Shown here: positions 10,659 to 53,680 of the stretch, piece after piece | Numbering within the stretch: the stretch's first letter is position 1 | How the letters are laid out: each line of letters opens with the position of its first letter | DNA from: Paracoccus sediminicola | GTDB lineage: Bacteria; Pseudomonadota; Alphaproteobacteria; Rhodobacterales; Rhodobacteraceae | Direction of reading: 5' to 3' | NCBI RefSeq assembly: GCF_027912835.1 | Contig: NZ_CP115768.1 | Span: 372,001-436,000, forward strand | Length of the DNA stretch: 64,000 nt | Made by a program: the position numbers and the translations under genes | The notes under the pieces: generated by a model | Databases searched by the model: none | What the model was told of the DNA's origin: nothing | The model's input: the letters and a program-made list of their open reading frames with translations, nothing else

Positions 10659-11648
10659 ATGACGGTGCAGAAAACCCTTTTCGCCTCGGCCGCTGCGTTC
10701 GGCCTGATGGCGGGCATGGCGTCGGCAGAGCCGGCGCTGATCTTCGATCTGGGAGGTAAATTCGACAAATCCTTCAACGAGGCCGCCTATACTGGCGCGG
10801 CGCGTTGGGCCGAGGAAACCGGCAACTCCTACAAGGAGTTGGAAATGCAGTCCGAAGCACAGCGCGAACAGGCGCTGCGGCGTCTGGCGCAGAGCGGTGC
10901 GAACCCGATCGTGATGACCGGCTTTGCCTTCGGCGAGGTGCTGAACAAGATCGCCCCCGACTATCCGGACACGAAATTCGTCATCATCGACGCCGTCGTC
11001 GAACAGCCCAATGTGCAGTCGAATGTCTTCAATGAAGGCGAGGGCTCGTATCTCGCCGGGATCATGGCCGCGCAGGCCTCGGAATCCGGCACGGTAGGCT
11101 TTATCGGCGGCATGGACATTCCGCTGATCCACAAATTCGAATGCGGCTATCGTCAGGGCTTCCTGGCGGCGAATCCCGAAGGCGAGGTGCTGATCAACTA
11201 TACCGGCACCACCCCCGCAGCGTGGAACGACCCGGTGAAGGGCGGCGAACTGACTCGCGCCCAGATCTCGCAAGGCGCCGATGTGATCTATGCCGCAGCG
11301 GGCGGCACCGGGATCGGTGTGCTGCAAACCGCCGCCGATGAGGGCGTCCTGTCGATCGGCGTGGACAGTAACCAGAACCATCTTCACCCGGGGCAGGTGC
11401 TGACCTCGGTGGTCAAGAACGTCGATGTCGCGGTGTTCGACGCTTTCACCGCCGGAGAAGAGGTCGAGCCGGGCGTGAAAGTCTGGGACGTGGCCTCGGA
11501 CGGGGTGACGGTCGCCATCGACGACAACAACGCCGAGCTGGTCACCGATGAGATGCAGGCCGCCGTCGACGAGGCCCGCGAAAAGATCGCCTCCGGCGAG
11601 ATCGAGGTGCATGACTACATGACCGATAATAGCTGCCCGGTGGATTGA
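10659..11648 (+). CDS. BMP family ABC transporter substrate-binding protein (nucleoside type)
   Basis: This 329-residue periplasmic binding protein belongs to the BMP/PnrA group, known for purine nucleoside uptake. A cleavable signal peptide spans about residues 1-23 (ends ASAEP). The mature protein starts with the family hallmark FDLGGKFDKSFN and keeps GGMDIPLIHKFECGY near residue 150, AAGGTG near 212 and GVDSNQ near 235. It heads an operon with an ATPase, two permeases and a purine nucleoside phosphorylase, which supports nucleosides as ligands. The ATG of the ATPase gene overlaps its stop codon. Confidence 0.9.
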   Translation: MTVQKTLFASAAAFGLMAGMASAEPALIFDLGGKFDKSFNEAAYTGAARWAEETGNSYKELEMQSEAQREQALRRLAQSGANPIVMTGFAFGEVLNKIAPDYPDTKFVIIDAVVEQPNVQSNVFNEGEGSYLAGIMAAQASESGTVGFIGGMDIPLIHKFECGYRQGFLAANPEGEVLINYTGTTPAAWNDPVKGGELTRAQISQGADVIYAAAGGTGIGVLQTAADEGVLSIGVDSNQNHLHPGQVLTSVVKNVDVAVFDAFTAGEEVEPGVKVWDVASDGVTVAIDDNNAELVTDEMQAAVDEAREKIASGEIEVHDYMTDNSCPVD

Positions 11649-47955: not shown

Positions 47956-48432
47956 CGGCCCCGATGGCTGGCGTGCAGATGATTTAATGAAGTTTTCACA
48001 GGCAATTCACACACGTTTCAAGAGATGTGCCGATAGGATGATTTCATCGGGGACGGCAGTGTAAACCCCGAATTTTCGAGTACCACGTCGTTAAGGTTCG
48101 CGGGATCCGTGGGAATGGTCATCGCAATTCGTGCCAAGACCGTCTGGTAAATTTCCACGAATCCCGCGGCCAATCACGGCGCAAAGTAACCAGTGAGGCG
48201 GCCGCAGCGCGCGCCGCATATCACGAGTTGCCCAGGTTTTGGGGGCCGGGCGCAGGCACCGGATCGGACGGCCGTGGCGGTCAACGAGGGAAGACCGCCG
48301 CAGTCGGCCGCTCCGGTGCGGCGCTGGCACGAGGCGCCGGATCACCAGCTGCCGGCCAAGCCCGATCAGCTTCGACATGGCGGCACACAGGCGCCATCAT
48401 GTTCCAGACAGAGAGTTCATCAGATATCGAAG
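47956..48432. other. Intergenic stretch without recognised gene
   Basis: This 477-base gap separates the LysR gene from the small minus-strand gene. It is less G+C rich near its left end. An open frame on the minus strand at 48091-48378 (95 codons, Arg-rich, no recognisable family, no good ribosome site) is not supported as a gene. No tRNA, terminator or repeat was seen. It could hold remnants of a decayed gene or transcripts I cannot recognise. Confidence 0.5.
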
Positions 48433-48657
48433 CTACGGACGCCGGTCGCGAGTGTCGCCGTCGCCTGCACCCGCATCGTCCAGATCGGCGGGACCGACCC
48501 GGTCGGCGATCACCACCAGCCAGGCCAGCGTCTCGCGCTGCGCCGGGCTCAACCGTTCATCGCCCACGAGCTTCACCGCATGCGCGCGCAATCCGGGCCA
48601 AGCGTGGTAGAATTCTGAAATCGAGTCGATCCCGAGCCGCGATTGCTGTTCTGCCAT
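48433..48657 (-). CDS. Small orphan protein divergent from the SARP-like regulator
   Basis: This 74-residue protein is not recognised. It has an ordered-looking core (IDSISEFYHAWPGLR, then LSPAQRETLAWLVVIADRVG) predicted to be two or three helices, and a short Asp/Gly/Arg-rich tail. It has no signal peptide. A strong GGAGGA site precedes ATG 48657, which supports translation. It shares a 142-base AT-rich divergent region with the winged-helix/TPR regulator gene, so it may be co-regulated with the following cassette. Function unknown. Confidence 0.62.
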   Translation of the reverse strand: MAEQQSRLGIDSISEFYHAWPGLRAHAVKLVGDERLSPAQRETLAWLVVIADRVGPADLDDAGAGDGDTRDRRP

Positions 48658-48799
48658 GATCGTCCTCCTCCACGGGGCTCCCATGAGGGCAGTTTGGATC
48701 AGCGGATCGCGCCTTGGGGCGTGAATATAGTGTGAGCGGCTTGGCGATCGAGCAAACTGTAAAGTAGAGTTAATTTATGTTTGATTAGATTGGTCTGCC

Positions 48800-50434
48800 A
48801 TGGGTGAGCCTCTGCAAATCTCACTGTTCGGAACCTGCGCCGTTAAAATGGCCGGCGCGGACGGGGTGGAGATACGCGGGGCCAAGCATCGCGCGCTGAT
48901 CTCGCTTCTGGCGACGGCGCCTCTGGGGCGTCGCACGCGCTCCTTTCTTCAGCACACGCTCTGGGGCGATGCGGGCTATGATAGCGGCCACCAGAACCTG
49001 CGTCGTGCCCTGTCGGATCTGCGCAAGATCCTCGGCGAGGATTTCGACAGGATTCTGCACATCACCAGCACCGATGTCGAGATCGACCTCGATGCGCTGC
49101 GCTTTACCGGCGACCCGCATCGCGGCGCGTTTCTCGAGGATCTGAACGTCCAGACCCCGGCCTTCGCCGCATGGCGTCAGAAGCTGCGCGACAATCCGGC
49201 AGGCGCCGCGACGCTCTGCGCGCGGGGCGCGATCACGCAATCGCCGAAGCCGCGCATCACCGCGCTGCCGCTGAGCGTGCTGGGAGAGGATCCGCAGCTG
49301 CGCGCCTTCGGCGACTGGGTGGCCGAAGAGATCTGCCGGGTTTTGTCGCGATCCTCGCTGTATTCGGTGATCTCGCATCTCTCGGCGCGCGCGATGGTGC
49401 AGCGCATGATCGACCTCGCCGATGTGCGCGACACGCTGGATGTCGATTACATGATTACCGGCACGATCCGGCGCTATCGCGGCGACTGCGTGCTCGATTT
49501 CGACTTTCTCGATGCCCGCAGCGGGGTCATCGTCTGGAACCGGCATTTCTCATGTCCCGAGGACAGCTTCACCGACGAACTGCCCGAACGGCTCATCAAT
49601 GTCGTCGTTTCGGCGGGGCGGACCATTGCCGACGCGGCGATCGGCCATATTCGCGACAAAAGGCTGGGCGACATTGCCGATCATCAGCTGGTGCTGGGCG
49701 GCGTTTCGCTGATGCACCGCCCGGCGCTGCGCGATTTTCTCCGCTCGCAAGAGCTGCTGATCGAGGCCGCCGAGCGTATGCCGCAAGCGCCGGAGGTCCA
49801 TGCCTGGCTGGGCAAATGGTATGTGCTGAACGTCTTCAAGAACTACACGACAAACCGAAAGCGCGACACGCAGCTCGCGCTCGACTGCACCGAGCGTGCT
49901 CTGGATCTCGACCCGACCTCCAGCTTTGGGCTGACCATCAACGGCTTCGTCCATGGCAATCTGCTGAAGCGGCTGGATGTCGCTGAGGCGCGCTATTGCG
50001 CAGCGCTCGAGGTCAATCCGAATGAAAGCCTCTCCTGGCTGCTGCGCGGAACGCTGCTGGCGTTTCGCGACAACGGCCAAGCCGCGATAGAGGCTACGGA
50101 CACGGCGCGGCGGCTCTCGCCCATCGATCCGTTCGGGTATTATTATGACAGCCTCTCGGCCTCGGCGCATCTCGCTGCCGAGGATTATCCACGCGCGCTG
50201 GCGCTGGCCGACCAATCATTGCAGGTCAATGACCGACATCTTTCGACGCTGCGCACCCAGATCGCGGCGATGTATTTTCTGGACGATATCGAGGGCTGCC
50301 GGCAGGCGGCCGAAACGCTGAGGCGGCGCTTCCCCGAGTTTCGGCTGGACAGCTATGGCCGTGACCATCCGGGCGCGGGATCGAAGACGGGGCAGCGCGT
50401 GCTCGAAGCCTTGCGCGCCTCGGGGATCAGGTAA
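48800..50434 (+). CDS. SARP-like transcriptional regulator with winged-helix and TPR domains
   Basis: This 544-residue cytoplasmic protein starts with an OmpR/SARP-type winged helix (about 5-110: LQISLFGTCAVK, KHRALISLLATAP, LWGDAGYDSGHQNLRRALSDLRKILG). A middle domain of about 150-290 (VLGEDPQLRAFGDWVAEEIC..., TGTIRRYRGDCVLDFDFLDARSG) resembles the module often placed before TPRs in CadC- and cyclase-linked regulators. The C-terminal half, about 290-530, is a TPR array (ALDCTERALDLDP, ALEVNPNESLSWLLRG, ALADQSLQVNDRH). TPRs suggest that a protein partner or oligomerisation controls it. The PAP2-like and protease genes follow on the same strand after 19 bases and are the likely targets. Confidence 0.85.
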   Translation: MGEPLQISLFGTCAVKMAGADGVEIRGAKHRALISLLATAPLGRRTRSFLQHTLWGDAGYDSGHQNLRRALSDLRKILGEDFDRILHITSTDVEIDLDALRFTGDPHRGAFLEDLNVQTPAFAAWRQKLRDNPAGAATLCARGAITQSPKPRITALPLSVLGEDPQLRAFGDWVAEEICRVLSRSSLYSVISHLSARAMVQRMIDLADVRDTLDVDYMITGTIRRYRGDCVLDFDFLDARSGVIVWNRHFSCPEDSFTDELPERLINVVVSAGRTIADAAIGHIRDKRLGDIADHQLVLGGVSLMHRPALRDFLRSQELLIEAAERMPQAPEVHAWLGKWYVLNVFKNYTTNRKRDTQLALDCTERALDLDPTSSFGLTINGFVHGNLLKRLDVAEARYCAALEVNPNESLSWLLRGTLLAFRDNGQAAIEATDTARRLSPIDPFGYYYDSLSASAHLAAEDYPRALALADQSLQVNDRHLSTLRTQIAAMYFLDDIEGCRQAAETLRRRFPEFRLDSYGRDHPGAGSKTGQRVLEALRASGIR

Positions 50435-50453
50435 CTCAGACAGGAGATACATC

Positions 50454-51563
50454 ATGTCGGCTTCAGGCGGGTTCGGAGGGTTCGGCGGCTTCGGAGGATT
50501 TGGCGGGTTCGGAGGATTTGGCGGCTTCGGGGGCTTCGGCGGCTTTACAGGGCTCGGCGGGTTTCTGGGGCAGGGTGACACCGGCGCCTATGATCCTGCG
50601 ACGACAATGGGTTTGCTGACCACATCCGAGGCGCTGAACCATCTGGCCGGGGCTGATCCCGCACCGCAGGGCCAAGACCTGCCCGCCAATGATCCCGGCA
50701 ATCTCGCGCGTTGGGCGGTCTGGGTGCGCGGATCGCTTTACGTCGCCGAATTCTTGAAGGGGCTCGACTGGGGCATGGATGGCGGCGGCCCAGTCACGCT
50801 GTCCTTCGACGGGGCAGAGATGTTTCGCGTGCAGCGGCCTTCCTCCGCGCTGTTGGTCGATCAGTGCCGCCATGTGCGCGACTATGCCGCCTTGCGCGAA
50901 GAGCGGGGGACCGAAATCACCTCGCAGCTCGGCTTTCCGACCCCTTATTTTGCGATGCTGCTGGGTTTGCATAGCGGCCAGCACGGGCGCAGCTTCGAAC
51001 TGATTACCGCAACGCAGGTCATGGCCGCCCATGTTGCGATGGTGGTGAAACACGCGCTTGCCGTGCGCCGCCCCGACCAGATCGACGGGCGCATCGCGCC
51101 GATGATCCCGACACCGGGTCACGGCAGCTTTCCGTCGGCCCATGCGACCGAGGCTTACGCAGTGGCCACCGTGCTGGAGTCTCTGGTCGGCGCGTGGGGC
51201 TCGCTGGGCGATGCGGGGCCGCGTCTGCGGATGCTTTACGGGCTGGCTGAGCGTGTGGCGGTCAATCGCACGGTCGCCGGGGTGCATTATCCGATCGACA
51301 GCTGGGCCGGCGCCGCGCTGGGCGTCGCGGTGGGCCGCGCCGTGCTTGGGCGCTGCGGGCAGGACATGCCGATCCGCCCGGCCCGCTACGAGCCCGTCGA
51401 TGCCGATTTCTTCGATCACGATTTCCACGACGAGCAAGCCGCCGCCCGCGCCGGTCTCAGCCGCGCAGCGACCGGATCACGGGCCGGGGCGGGACAGTGT
51501 TTCTCCTGGCTATGGGCGAGCGCCTGCAAGGAGCGGCAGGGAAGCGGCGGGGCGGTGTCATGA
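50454..51563 (+). CDS. PAP2/vanadium-haloperoxidase-fold protein with N-terminal GGF repeats
   Basis: This 369-residue protein has an N-terminal run of nine perfect Gly-Gly-Phe units (residues 5-31) plus two degenerate ones, a linker, and a PAP2/chloroperoxidase domain of about 130-300. All three pocket motifs are present: Lys199 to Arg206-Pro207 (KxxxxxxRP), PSAH with His230, and Arg272-x5-His278-x3-Asp282. These bind phosphate in acid phosphatases and vanadate in haloperoxidases; sequence alone does not decide between them. There is no signal peptide or membrane segment, unlike lipid phosphatases. It lies 19 bases after the regulator gene with an AGGAG site, and its stop overlaps the protease ATG. 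Confidence 0.85.
   Translation: MSASGGFGGFGGFGGFGGFGGFGGFGGFGGFTGLGGFLGQGDTGAYDPATTMGLLTTSEALNHLAGADPAPQGQDLPANDPGNLARWAVWVRGSLYVAEFLKGLDWGMDGGGPVTLSFDGAEMFRVQRPSSALLVDQCRHVRDYAALREERGTEITSQLGFPTPYFAMLLGLHSGQHGRSFELITATQVMAAHVAMVVKHALAVRRPDQIDGRIAPMIPTPGHGSFPSAHATEAYAVATVLESLVGAWGSLGDAGPRLRMLYGLAERVAVNRTVAGVHYPIDSWAGAALGVAVGRAVLGRCGQDMPIRPARYEPVDADFFDHDFHDEQAAARAGLSRAATGSRAGAGQCFSWLWASACKERQGSGGAVS
50466..50564 (+). repeat. Tandem 9-base repeat coding for Gly-Gly-Phe
   Basis: Eleven consecutive 9-base units of the form GGN GGN TTY; the first nine encode GGF exactly (50466-50546), the tenth reads TGL and the eleventh GGF. Codon choice varies between units (GGA/GGC/GGG, TTC/TTT), so the peptide repeat is conserved better than the DNA repeat. 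Confidence 0.95.
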
Positions 51564-53680
51564 ACCGCATGGCGGATGGTGGCCAGAGTCGTCGCCTCTT
51601 CCGCTATGACGGCCCCTATGAGACATGGTCATTCGGCGCCGCGCTGGGCCGCGCATTCTCTTTCCCCGCTTTGGCCGAAGATGCGGCGCAGCATTACGCG
51701 GCGCTGGTCGAGGGCGGGGCCGAGCCGGCGGCATTGAAGGCGCAGCCTCCGGTTGTTCTGCGCTTGCCGCCGCTGTGGAATCCGGGTGCAAAGTCGCTCG
51801 CCGCGATCCCCTTTGCGATGTCGCGCCCCGACGAGCGGGGCCGTTACCGGGATCTGCGAGAGCAGGACTTCGACCGGCTGCGCCTGGCGGCATCTGCTGC
51901 CGGTGAGGGGGCCGCGCCGCGCTATCGGGTGAATTATCCGATCTCGGCGCAAAGCTGGGTCACGGATTACGACCCGTCGCGCGCAATGGAAAGCTGGCAG
52001 AGACCCGCGACCCGCCCGCGCGTGATCATTGGCGTAATCGATGACGGGATTCCGTTCCTGCATCGTGGCTTCGTGGAAAACGACGGGCGCTCGCGGATCA
52101 GCCATTGCTGGCTCCAGCCCGCCGCCGCGCCCACGGGTCCCGCCGCTGTGCCCTTCGGGCGCGAATGGACCAATGCCCGCATCGATGCCCTGCGCGCCAG
52201 CGGCACCGATGAGATGCGGCTTTATCGCGAAGCGGGTGCGATAGACGCCAGGCTTCCTGAACTGGGACTGCATCTGCGCCGCCGGGCGACTCACGGTGCC
52301 CATATCGCCGGACTCTGCGGCGCGGATGATCCCGTGCTGCGCGCCGCGCCCCTGGGTGACGAGGTGCAGATCGTTGTCGTGCAGCTGCCCAACACCATTG
52401 CCTGGGACACGTCGGGTTTCGGCAAGGAGATGTATATGCTCAGCGCGCTGCATTACGTTTTCGACCGCGCCCGCAGGATCGCCGCCGCTTTCCCCGGCGG
52501 CCCAGAAGAGCTGCCGCTGATCGTGAATTTCAGCTATGGCTGGAGCGCCAACCGCCATGACGGCGGTGCCACGATGGAGCGGGCGATGGAACAGCTGATC
52601 TCGCGCCGTCGGGCGATGCAGCCGCTGAGCTCGCTGAACATGCCGATGGGGAATAATTTCGCCAAGTCGATGCATGCGAGCATCGGACCCGCGGACATGA
52701 CGGGTGGCGAGGCGCGGATTGGCTGGCAGGTATTCCCGGATGACCGCACCTCGAGCTATCTCGAAATCTGGTTTCCGGAAGGGCAGGGTGGTCCGGGGTC
52801 CGGTGTGCGGCTGACGCCGCCCCCAGGAACGACGCTCGACAGCCCGGCGGAGATTTCTCTTGACGGTGAAGAGGCTCCCGAAGGCGGGGACGTGTTTCAT
52901 CACATGCCGCTGCGGATCGGCGGGAAGGTCGTGGGGATGCTCTCGGCCGATCTGCATCTGGGCGAGCGCTGGCGGGTGACGCTGGCGCTGATCCCGACAG
53001 TCGATAGTCGTGGTGAGGGTCGCCGCGCGCCCTCGGGACTCTGGAAGATCGCGCTGCGCGGACCCGGTCTTGGCCACGATGAGCGGATCGGGGTCTGGTT
53101 GCAGCGCGATGACGATCCCGAAGCGCTGCGCAGCTTCGGCCGGCAGAGCCGTCTGGTCAATCCCGACGTATCCGGGGCGAATCCCGGCCCGCTTGAACCG
53201 GCGTTACCAAGCGGGAAGGTGCGGGGCTATGGCACGTTCAACGGCATCGGCTCGGCGCCGTCGGTGACGCGCGTTTCAGGCTATGTGATGGGGTCGGATG
53301 CGCCGAGCCTCTATAGCGGAGCCGCCGCGCTGACATTCACGGACGGCGCGCTGAAGGTGATCGGTGTCCGCCCGGCCTTCGCCGCGCCTGCCGATCGCGG
53401 GCTGCACCGCGCCGGGCTGCAATCCATCGGTGTGCTGAGCGGCAGCGCCGCGCAGCTTCAAGGCACCAGCGCCGCCTGCGCGCTCGCCACACGCTGGATG
53501 GCCCTGAACATCGCGGCAGGGCACGACATCCATGCAGGGCTCAGATGCTTCTTTCGAGGGGATGACCACGGGCGCGATCCCGCCCCGGCCCTTCGCAGCG
53601 GCGAAACAGATCGCTCAGACAGCGATGCGATCCGGGCGGCGCGTCTGGGTGATGGGCTGATCCCTTTTCCCCATCCCTGA
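51560..53680 (+). CDS. Subtilisin-like S8 serine protease with large insertion
   Basis: This 706-residue protein has the subtilase triad: Asp161 in GVIDDGIP, His245 in THGAHIAG and Ser637 in QGTSAAC. The His-Ser distance of about 390 residues is far larger than in subtilisin (about 160), so an extra domain is inserted; part of it (about 395-530) looks beta-rich. About 150 residues precede the catalytic domain but there is no signal peptide, so secretion by the Sec route is not indicated. ATG 51560 overlaps the stop of the PAP2-like gene (ATGA), so the two are coupled. Its substrate is unknown; the GGF-repeat protein is an obvious candidate partner (inference). Confidence 0.85.
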   Translation: MNRMADGGQSRRLFRYDGPYETWSFGAALGRAFSFPALAEDAAQHYAALVEGGAEPAALKAQPPVVLRLPPLWNPGAKSLAAIPFAMSRPDERGRYRDLREQDFDRLRLAASAAGEGAAPRYRVNYPISAQSWVTDYDPSRAMESWQRPATRPRVIIGVIDDGIPFLHRGFVENDGRSRISHCWLQPAAAPTGPAAVPFGREWTNARIDALRASGTDEMRLYREAGAIDARLPELGLHLRRRATHGAHIAGLCGADDPVLRAAPLGDEVQIVVVQLPNTIAWDTSGFGKEMYMLSALHYVFDRARRIAAAFPGGPEELPLIVNFSYGWSANRHDGGATMERAMEQLISRRRAMQPLSSLNMPMGNNFAKSMHASIGPADMTGGEARIGWQVFPDDRTSSYLEIWFPEGQGGPGSGVRLTPPPGTTLDSPAEISLDGEEAPEGGDVFHHMPLRIGGKVVGMLSADLHLGERWRVTLALIPTVDSRGEGRRAPSGLWKIALRGPGLGHDERIGVWLQRDDDPEALRSFGRQSRLVNPDVSGANPGPLEPALPSGKVRGYGTFNGIGSAPSVTRVSGYVMGSDAPSLYSGAAALTFTDGALKVIGVRPAFAAPADRGLHRAGLQSIGVLSGSAAQLQGTSAACALATRWMALNIAAGHDIHAGLRCFFRGDDHGRDPAPALRSGETDRSDSDAIRAARLGDGLIPFPHP

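Follow-up and report, generated by a model that had tools for sequence, protein, structure and literature searches.

A uniform, lineage-variable N-terminal array on the PAP2-fold enzyme of a conserved regulator-PAP2-protease module

Why should an enzyme of the PAP2 fold begin with nine copies of one tripeptide, and why should its gene stand between those of a tetratricopeptide repeat (TPR) regulator and a subtilisin-like protease? The question is raised by a locus at positions 48433 to 53680 of a 64,000-nucleotide stretch of Paracoccus sediminicola DNA (contig NZ_CP115768.1, positions 372,001 to 436,000; hereafter the window). The original prediction for this DNA described a four-gene cassette, and all four genes are present at the locus; the core unit is one of three genes, coding for regulator, PAP2-fold enzyme and protease, because the fourth, a small divergent gene, looks clade-limited. 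That this three-gene module is real and conserved is well supported, and its PAP2 protein carries an N-terminal array of short identical units in all loci where it was found. We suggest, with considerable reserve, that the three proteins may form a cytoplasmic control module in which the array is a cognate tag, cut by the protease, sensed by the TPR regulator, or both. The features of the locus, in window coordinates, are:

48800..50434, plus strand: regulator, 544 residues, with a putative SARP/HilA-like winged-helix N-terminus, a TolB_N/FlgO-like middle and a TPR C-terminus
50454..51563, plus strand: PAP2-fold enzyme, 369 residues, with motifs KX6RP, PSAH and NRX5HX3D
50466..50546, plus strand: (GGF)9 array, residues 5-31 of the PAP2 protein, with copies alike in residues but scrambled at third codon positions, disordered in the predicted model
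51560..53680, plus strand: S8 subtilase, 706 residues, with triad D161/H245/S637, oxyanion N365 and a long insert between H and S
48721..48736, plus strand: operator-like direct repeat GTGAA-N6-GTGAG with an 11-bp period, then CTTGG, 79 bp 5' of the regulator start
48433..48657, minus strand: small divergent gene, 74 residues, with the conserved end ..DRVGPADL, detected only in the close alphaproteobacterial clade

The subtilase start overlaps the PAP2 stop by ATGA, and the PAP2 protein reads MSAS followed directly by (GGF)9. Among the window proteins, Pfam recognizes the PAP2 domain (E 5e-11) and the subtilase (E 0.0012, under the gathering score), gives sub-threshold TPR matches in the regulator and has no match to the small gene. 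An Rfam scan returned no match and a promoter scan a single minus-strand match, at chance level.

With the subtilase as query, a scan of genome contigs yielded 22 close loci (in Paracoccus, roseobacters, Roseibium and others), in which the PAP2 gene is always directly upstream of the protease gene (22/22) and is preceded by the regulator in 21, the exception (L011) being a contig end. Of 149 genomes searched within the family, 30 contain subtilase relatives. The more distant loci L054-L088 represent 35 of 41 match rows, once the own genome, three weak rows and two rows holding second pieces had been set aside, and both PAP2 gene and regulator are found in 31 of these 35 places. Three main orders were seen: all three genes on one strand, a divergent regulator followed by PAP2 and protease, and a divergent regulator and PAP2 with the protease facing them on the opposite strand. 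Overall, PAP2 is present in 53/57 protease-anchored loci, none being seen in L067, L081, L083 and L088. Since L002-L023 and L054-L088 were found via the protease, its presence there is by construction; in 29 loci anchored on PAP2 (L127-L155), which are free of this bias, the regulator occurs in 29 and the window's S8 family in 19. Across all 83 PAP2 loci the regulator stands beside PAP2 in 82, the remaining one again ending with its contig. Conserved co-occurrence and order across homologues had been proposed beforehand as the test of the cassette, and both were found (22/22, 53/57, 29/29), rather than homologues occurring independently with no shared order. The regulator-PAP2-protease unit occurs across Pseudomonadota: among genomes sampled evenly out of larger groups, a PAP2 profile found the enzyme in 13 of 385 from the class and 21 of 398 from the phylum; two of these 21 belong to another class.

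The GGF repeat noticed in the window is confirmed at residues 5-31 and turned out to be general in the family, with a unit that changes between lineages. An N-terminal tandem array is present in 83/83 PAP2 loci (window included), with units of three residues in 73, four in 7, two in 2 and six in 1, and with 3 to 19 copies (median 9). Up to rotation there are 48 distinct units (for example GGF, GGL, GGI, GGV, GGA, TGW, SAY, GAF, NSQ, GHE, GNQ, GTQ, GAH, AGR, GWE, EAV, GKM, DAR and TGN, with GGNA, GGSH and GGGI among those of four residues), the unit being homogeneous within one protein and different between lineages. Gly occurs in 70/83 units, Pro and Cys in none, and no pair of basic residues was seen within units. 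By the same measure, such an array was found in the first 120 residues of 1 of 954 other called proteins of these loci, where it is a poly-Val stretch. Array limits were set by matching, and the count of non-modal residues (3/2395) is thus biased towards uniformity, a bias of which the codon-position result given below is free. Scores <12 mark the arrays of L059, L071 and L140, which are short or imperfect, and in L134 the chosen ATG stands 94 residues ahead of the array and is probably a wrong start.

No partner protein with the same repeat was found in a six-frame scan of L002-L023 and L054-L088, and the window's own genome has no other (GGF)3. Nine genomes with two PAP2 loci were compared, and the paired units differ, possibly by chance. 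Among the database PAP2 relatives listed, the array is visible in 12 of 109; in Roseibium polysiphoniae, the annotated start of P0130 is the Met right after the array shown by the conspecific locus L012. Annotated starts in P0124-P0232 can fall inside or after the array, which leaves it missing from many entries. Two outliers, L154 and L155, have (NK)n inside a longer imperfect LNK-type repeat, and their protease is a different subtilase; L066 contains, at 11241-11399, a long (DPV)n repeat within an unrelated frame of 886 residues.

How such uniformity is kept can be read from the codons. Between copies, identity at codon positions 1, 2 and 3 is 0.979, 0.991 and 0.375, respectively, and third-position identity between adjacent copies is 0.279 against 0.373 in shuffled order (0/1000). 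Codon identity is 0.371 over all pairs and 0.276 between adjacent copies, against 0.420 and 0.418 expected from operon codon usage, and 60/82 arrays lie below the expected value. In L056, L065 and L084, identity at codon positions 1 and 2 is 0.81-0.87 with residues still uniform, a pattern that requires Ser to switch between AGY and TCN codons. The codon data indicate that the array residues are held and that repeated DNA is avoided or lost. Because third positions are scrambled and residues uniform, the present arrays are not products of recent slippage; slippage and DNA-level phase variation were both rejected as their source on these data, and units of 9 and 12 bp would in any case leave the reading frame unshifted. 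Non-uniform antisense frames were considered as further support for protein-level conservation and were not used, since this was not borne out: in several loci one antisense frame shows equal uniformity, which is to be expected if third positions coincide.

The unit itself is replaced often. On a PAP2 tree of 83 tips we counted at least 55 unit changes, and L018 (GGF) and L019 (GGV) differ by 3% in the rest of the protein. In seven Phaeobacter plasmid records the unit NSF is constant in 5, 6 or 7 copies, and two records with identical cores have 6 and 7. Plain partial Mantel tests of the unit against protease or regulator (72 triads) yielded values that were positive but small and lay mostly beyond permutation; for unit composition and S8 given PAP2 the value was reached by 106/500 permutations. 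When units were simulated along the tree instead, the value for the TPR part given PAP2 was reached in 25, 39 and 14 of 200 simulations (three settings) and that for S8 given PAP2 in 113 to 123 of 200, so that neither was persuasive. These simulations covered 68 of the 72 triads (L015, L023, L074 and L153 were dropped as split, short or doubtful) and yielded fewer distinct units than the real 41.

The enzyme that carries the array had been described as PAP2/haloperoxidase-like, and the first half of this description stands. Pfam PAP2 is found in 45/45 members, and K168, R175, H199, R241 and H247 (A1 numbering), belonging to the three PAP2 motifs, are invariant in all 45; a C-terminal LW..A..E motif is also conserved in the family. 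The second half is better replaced: the pocket residues are common to vanadium haloperoxidases and phosphatases, and a phosphatase is likelier because class A acid phosphatases are the folds nearest to the PAP2 model. In the predicted structure the array appears disordered beside a confident enzyme core. The absence of a Sec signal from both enzymes, as claimed beforehand, agrees with a crude hydropathy scan, in which a strongly hydrophobic N-terminus was seen in 0/83 PAP2 proteins at the cut-off used; internal windows above 1.6 occur in 10/83 PAP2, 3/77 S8 and 9/82 regulator frames.

In the protease, D161, H245, N365 and S637 are invariant in 42/42 subtilases, which gives a complete S8 triad and oxyanion Asn, and Pfam Peptidase_S8 is matched by 39/42 members. 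The best profile matches among solved structures are Csp subtilases (E 2e-26). Ten of the 29 PAP2-anchored loci are without the window's S8 family. In its place stands a glutamic peptidase in five loci (Pfam Peptidase_A4, E 2e-18 to 1e-28) and another type of subtilase in two (E 4e-20 and 4e-21). In one of the remaining three an M24 peptidase gene lies downstream, in another a marginal papain-like frame lies on the opposite strand, and the third has no clear protease. That the protease may process the repeat protein, or the TPR regulator sense it, as the original prediction supposed, is plausible; retention of the repeat protein where the protease is of another class would fit processing. S8 includes a family that releases tripeptides, and the idea of a tripeptidyl-peptidase was attractive for units of three residues; units of four and the systems with a glutamic peptidase tell against its simple version. 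Other frames were seen near the protease by eye or by recurrence: a protein of ~560 residues in seven loci of one group (L065, L068, L072, L073, L081, L082 and L141), and a downstream protein of ~690 residues with subtilase-like motifs, judged by eye, in L006, L008, L010, L012 and L023. In L133, a DJ-1/PfpI-like frame, also by eye, lies 1.6 kb downstream.

The regulator is matched by NCBIfam HilA/EilA (E 2e-4), while Pfam Trans_reg_C and BTAD give no match in it at E <= 1. Its fold matches include TPR superhelices, Rap-pheromone complexes among them, and the CadC periplasmic domain. Most regulators show TPR repeats behind an N-terminus that is SARP-like (window), OmpR-type or a class III cyclase; among 54 relatives, Pfam finds Trans_reg_C in 8 and Guanylate_cyc in 7 (best E 1e-14), and the individual types, including 16 cyclase-type loci, were assigned by eye, a regular expression having caught one. 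The crude hydropathy scan found no membrane segment in the window regulator and a hydrophobic start in three others. Direct repeats with an 11-bp period are typical of SARP sites, and GTGAA-N6-GTGAR lies 68-79 bp before the regulator start in the window and in 21/21 close loci holding the regulator (chance rate 3/11000 shuffled regions), with CTTGG following in most. With the TTGG extension, this locus is the single site in the genome. In other systems the repeat occurs in 6/23 divergent loci, pointing to PAP2, in 7/19 same-strand DNA-binding ones (window included) and in 0/16 cyclase-type ones, 3 of the 61 systems lying outside the limits of the script. The earlier suggestion that the regulator acts at this locus is fitted by the operator-like repeat, which it may bind; the pattern fits a winged-helix regulator that would act on its own operon. 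A second repeat, GTGAA-N6-GTGAA, lies at 47995-48010 of the window (minus strand), 3' of a LysR-type gene and with no gene obviously downstream, making 2 such sites per 64 kb against 0.13 expected.

What surrounds the module is less constant. Flanks are variable and some genomes hold several copies; within 4 kb, the largest clusters of flanking genes, LysR-type (11 loci) and ABC ATPase (10 loci) by look, are common families. Occurrence extends to plasmids, 12 of 36 records being predicted conjugative; 21 records match the Phaeobacter gene (11/21 predicted conjugative), and there the whole triad is plasmid-borne (L169-L175). In L067, from an incomplete genome, one frame matches the N-terminal part of the regulator and then the subtilase from residue 244, as if the intervening genes had been lost. 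The small divergent gene, described before as an orphan starting at 48684, is present, and its start is better placed at 48657, because homologues have their Met at about this position and GGAGGAGG stands just before the ATG. It was detected by tblastn in 18/22 close loci, with L016 and L021 added by blastp, and was not detected among the called genes of 35 distant loci (L054-L088; L127-L155 were not searched).

How, then, could the array and its neighbours work together? An array that is uniform and yet arbitrary in sequence implies that something reads it and fits each copy, and the candidates within the module are the protease and the TPR domain. We propose that the winged-helix (elsewhere nucleotide-cyclase) TolB_N-TPR regulator would switch on its own operon through the GTGAA repeat, yielding a soluble enzyme of the PAP2 phosphatase fold with its N-terminal array, together with a dedicated protease. 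The protease would cut the disordered array, trimming the enzyme and freeing many copies of one short peptide. The TPR domain may sense either the array itself or the released peptide, thereby reporting enzyme level or protease activity and feeding back on the operon. As a partner would have to fit every copy, copies would stay alike within a lineage, and the whole array could change between lineages. To our knowledge, a near-uniform, arbitrary and lineage-replaced protein segment is a signature known only from multi-copy peptide precursors. Cleavage with TPR sensing is favoured because these precursors, such as the fungal KEX2-processed repeat proteins (KEPs), are the only case known to us that leaves this pattern, and because the array can persist when the protease is of another class.

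Several observations weigh against this proposal, which is why we hold it loosely. The units share no chemistry (GGF, GHE, AGR, NSQ, TGW), and with units so unlike, the specificity of a single protease family would have to vary greatly. L133 has no clear protease within 2.8 kb downstream, and for L139 and L140 the candidate is a doubtful one. The resemblance of the TPR part to Rap is generic, the direct repeat is found in just 13/42 distant DNA-binding-type systems (window counted), and L155 carries it in the opposite direction. The correlation between unit composition and TPR part did not stand out convincingly from units simulated along the tree, and cleavage, binding and expression are all steps that we infer. 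A more specific form of the proposal is doubtful in our judgement: an intracellular peptide code, in which identical tri- or tetrapeptides borne by the enzyme would be freed by the protease and read by the TPR regulator with its DNA-binding or cyclase output, lineages using different words and selection keeping the copies alike in protein and apart in DNA.

Two other explanations are serious rivals. One, which we also consider unlikely on balance, is that the array acts as a safety catch, keeping the enzyme inactive or in place until a triggered protease removes it and thereby turns enzyme activity on or off. On this view the TPR regulator would sense something other than a free peptide. The protease stays linked to the array-bearing enzyme despite the change of class, the predicted tail is disordered and N-terminal, several copies would give redundant cut sites, and the nearest solved S8 relatives are germination (Csp) proteases, which activate a pro-enzyme by cutting it. 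A catch, however, needs one site and not 3-19 identical copies, and it leaves the wholesale change of unit between L018 and L019, with their 3% core difference, unexplained. The other, to which we give somewhat less credit still, is that arrays of the same unit pack together and cluster the enzyme, the protease dissolving the clusters. Like would then have to match like, which would keep copies uniform and paralogues apart; the uniformity is independent of unit identity, Gly is frequent in the units, paired units differ in the two-locus genomes, again possibly by chance, and the single (GGF)3 site of the genome makes a partner with the same repeat unlikely. Chemically diverse units, though, are unlikely to share a packing mode, the unit length is 3 in 73 arrays but 2, 4 or 6 in 10, and the predicted single-chain model leaves the array unstructured.

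It is improbable that the array is a passive spacer, a by-product of replication slippage in an ordinary phosphatase-protease scavenging operon under a TPR regulator. Copy number does shift in 9-bp steps between Phaeobacter strains, and PAP2, S8 and TPR are all common families; slippage leaves like DNA, however, whereas third positions are scrambled under uniform residues and even codon positions 1 and 2 differ in L056, L065 and L084, and a spacer has no need for uniformity. Least probable by our estimate is an anti-phage or other conflict system with the PAP2 enzyme as a toxic effector released by the protease, for which patchy occurrence, multiple copies, plasmid carriage and variable flanks could speak, since no PADLOC model matched the four window proteins (E <= 1; flanks were not scanned for defence genes), none of 50,697 phage records matched and 12 viral contigs gave short matches only, at 29-34% identity, results that also leave the predicted stress or defence role unsupported.

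No description of this gene set was found among the open-licence papers listed, and we call the module undescribed on this provisional basis; by term, the accessible text of Kaur et al. 2020 (PMC7159879) contains no PAP2 and no haloperoxidase. Its parts have known relatives. The S8 protease resembles in profile the Csp subtilases of clostridial spore germination, with different partner genes, and the hosts here are not spore formers. From class A acid phosphatases and vanadium haloperoxidases the PAP2 enzyme differs in showing no signal peptide and in having an N-terminal array, the LW..A..E motif and recurrent protease and regulator partners. With SARP/HilA/CadC-type regulators the module shares the HilA/EilA match, the CadC periplasmic fold match and the repeat of 11-bp period, but the window regulator is without a membrane segment and is coupled to a repeat-tagged PAP2 enzyme and a protease, and in relatives its N-terminus is exchanged for a class III cyclase.

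KEX2, the processing protease of fungi, is a subtilisin relative. The available text on fungal KEPs describes many near-identical short motifs with units highly diverse between species (PMC6339444, PMC7329392, PMC9769878), and the likeness to the module lies in a repeat protein paired with a protease and in this diversity of units. As described there, KEPs are secreted and KEX2 sites flank their cores, whereas in the module's PAP2 proteins the crude scan found no secretion signal, the units contain no basic pair that could serve as a KEX2 site and abut without spacers, and an enzyme domain follows. In the accessible account of RRNPP systems (Rap, PlcR, AimR; PMC10075063), a TPR receptor-regulator likewise stands beside a candidate peptide source and related lineages differ in peptide, as in the module, and Rap is among the TPR-superhelix fold matches. 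The same account gives receptors of 250-500 residues, and the window regulator has 544, its relatives mostly >500; the module's candidate peptide, moreover, is repeated many times on an enzyme in which no signal peptide was seen, its hosts are Pseudomonadota and its sensor can carry a cyclase.

A uniform array fused to a soluble enzyme, beside a TPR regulator and usually an exchangeable protease, points to a type of control circuit that is easily hidden by annotation, and its direct repeat, catalytic residues and natural copy-number variants make the module directly testable. Through it a cell may regulate an enzyme, or signal to itself, in a manner not known before. As a cleavable or self-matching tag, the array would offer a new way of gating an enzyme. 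If it is a peptide store, the module, which could work like RRNPP systems or KEPs though its receptor is longer than those of the former and it shows no secretion signal or cleavage sites like the latter, would be an unrecognised TPR-peptide signalling system in Gram-negative bacteria.

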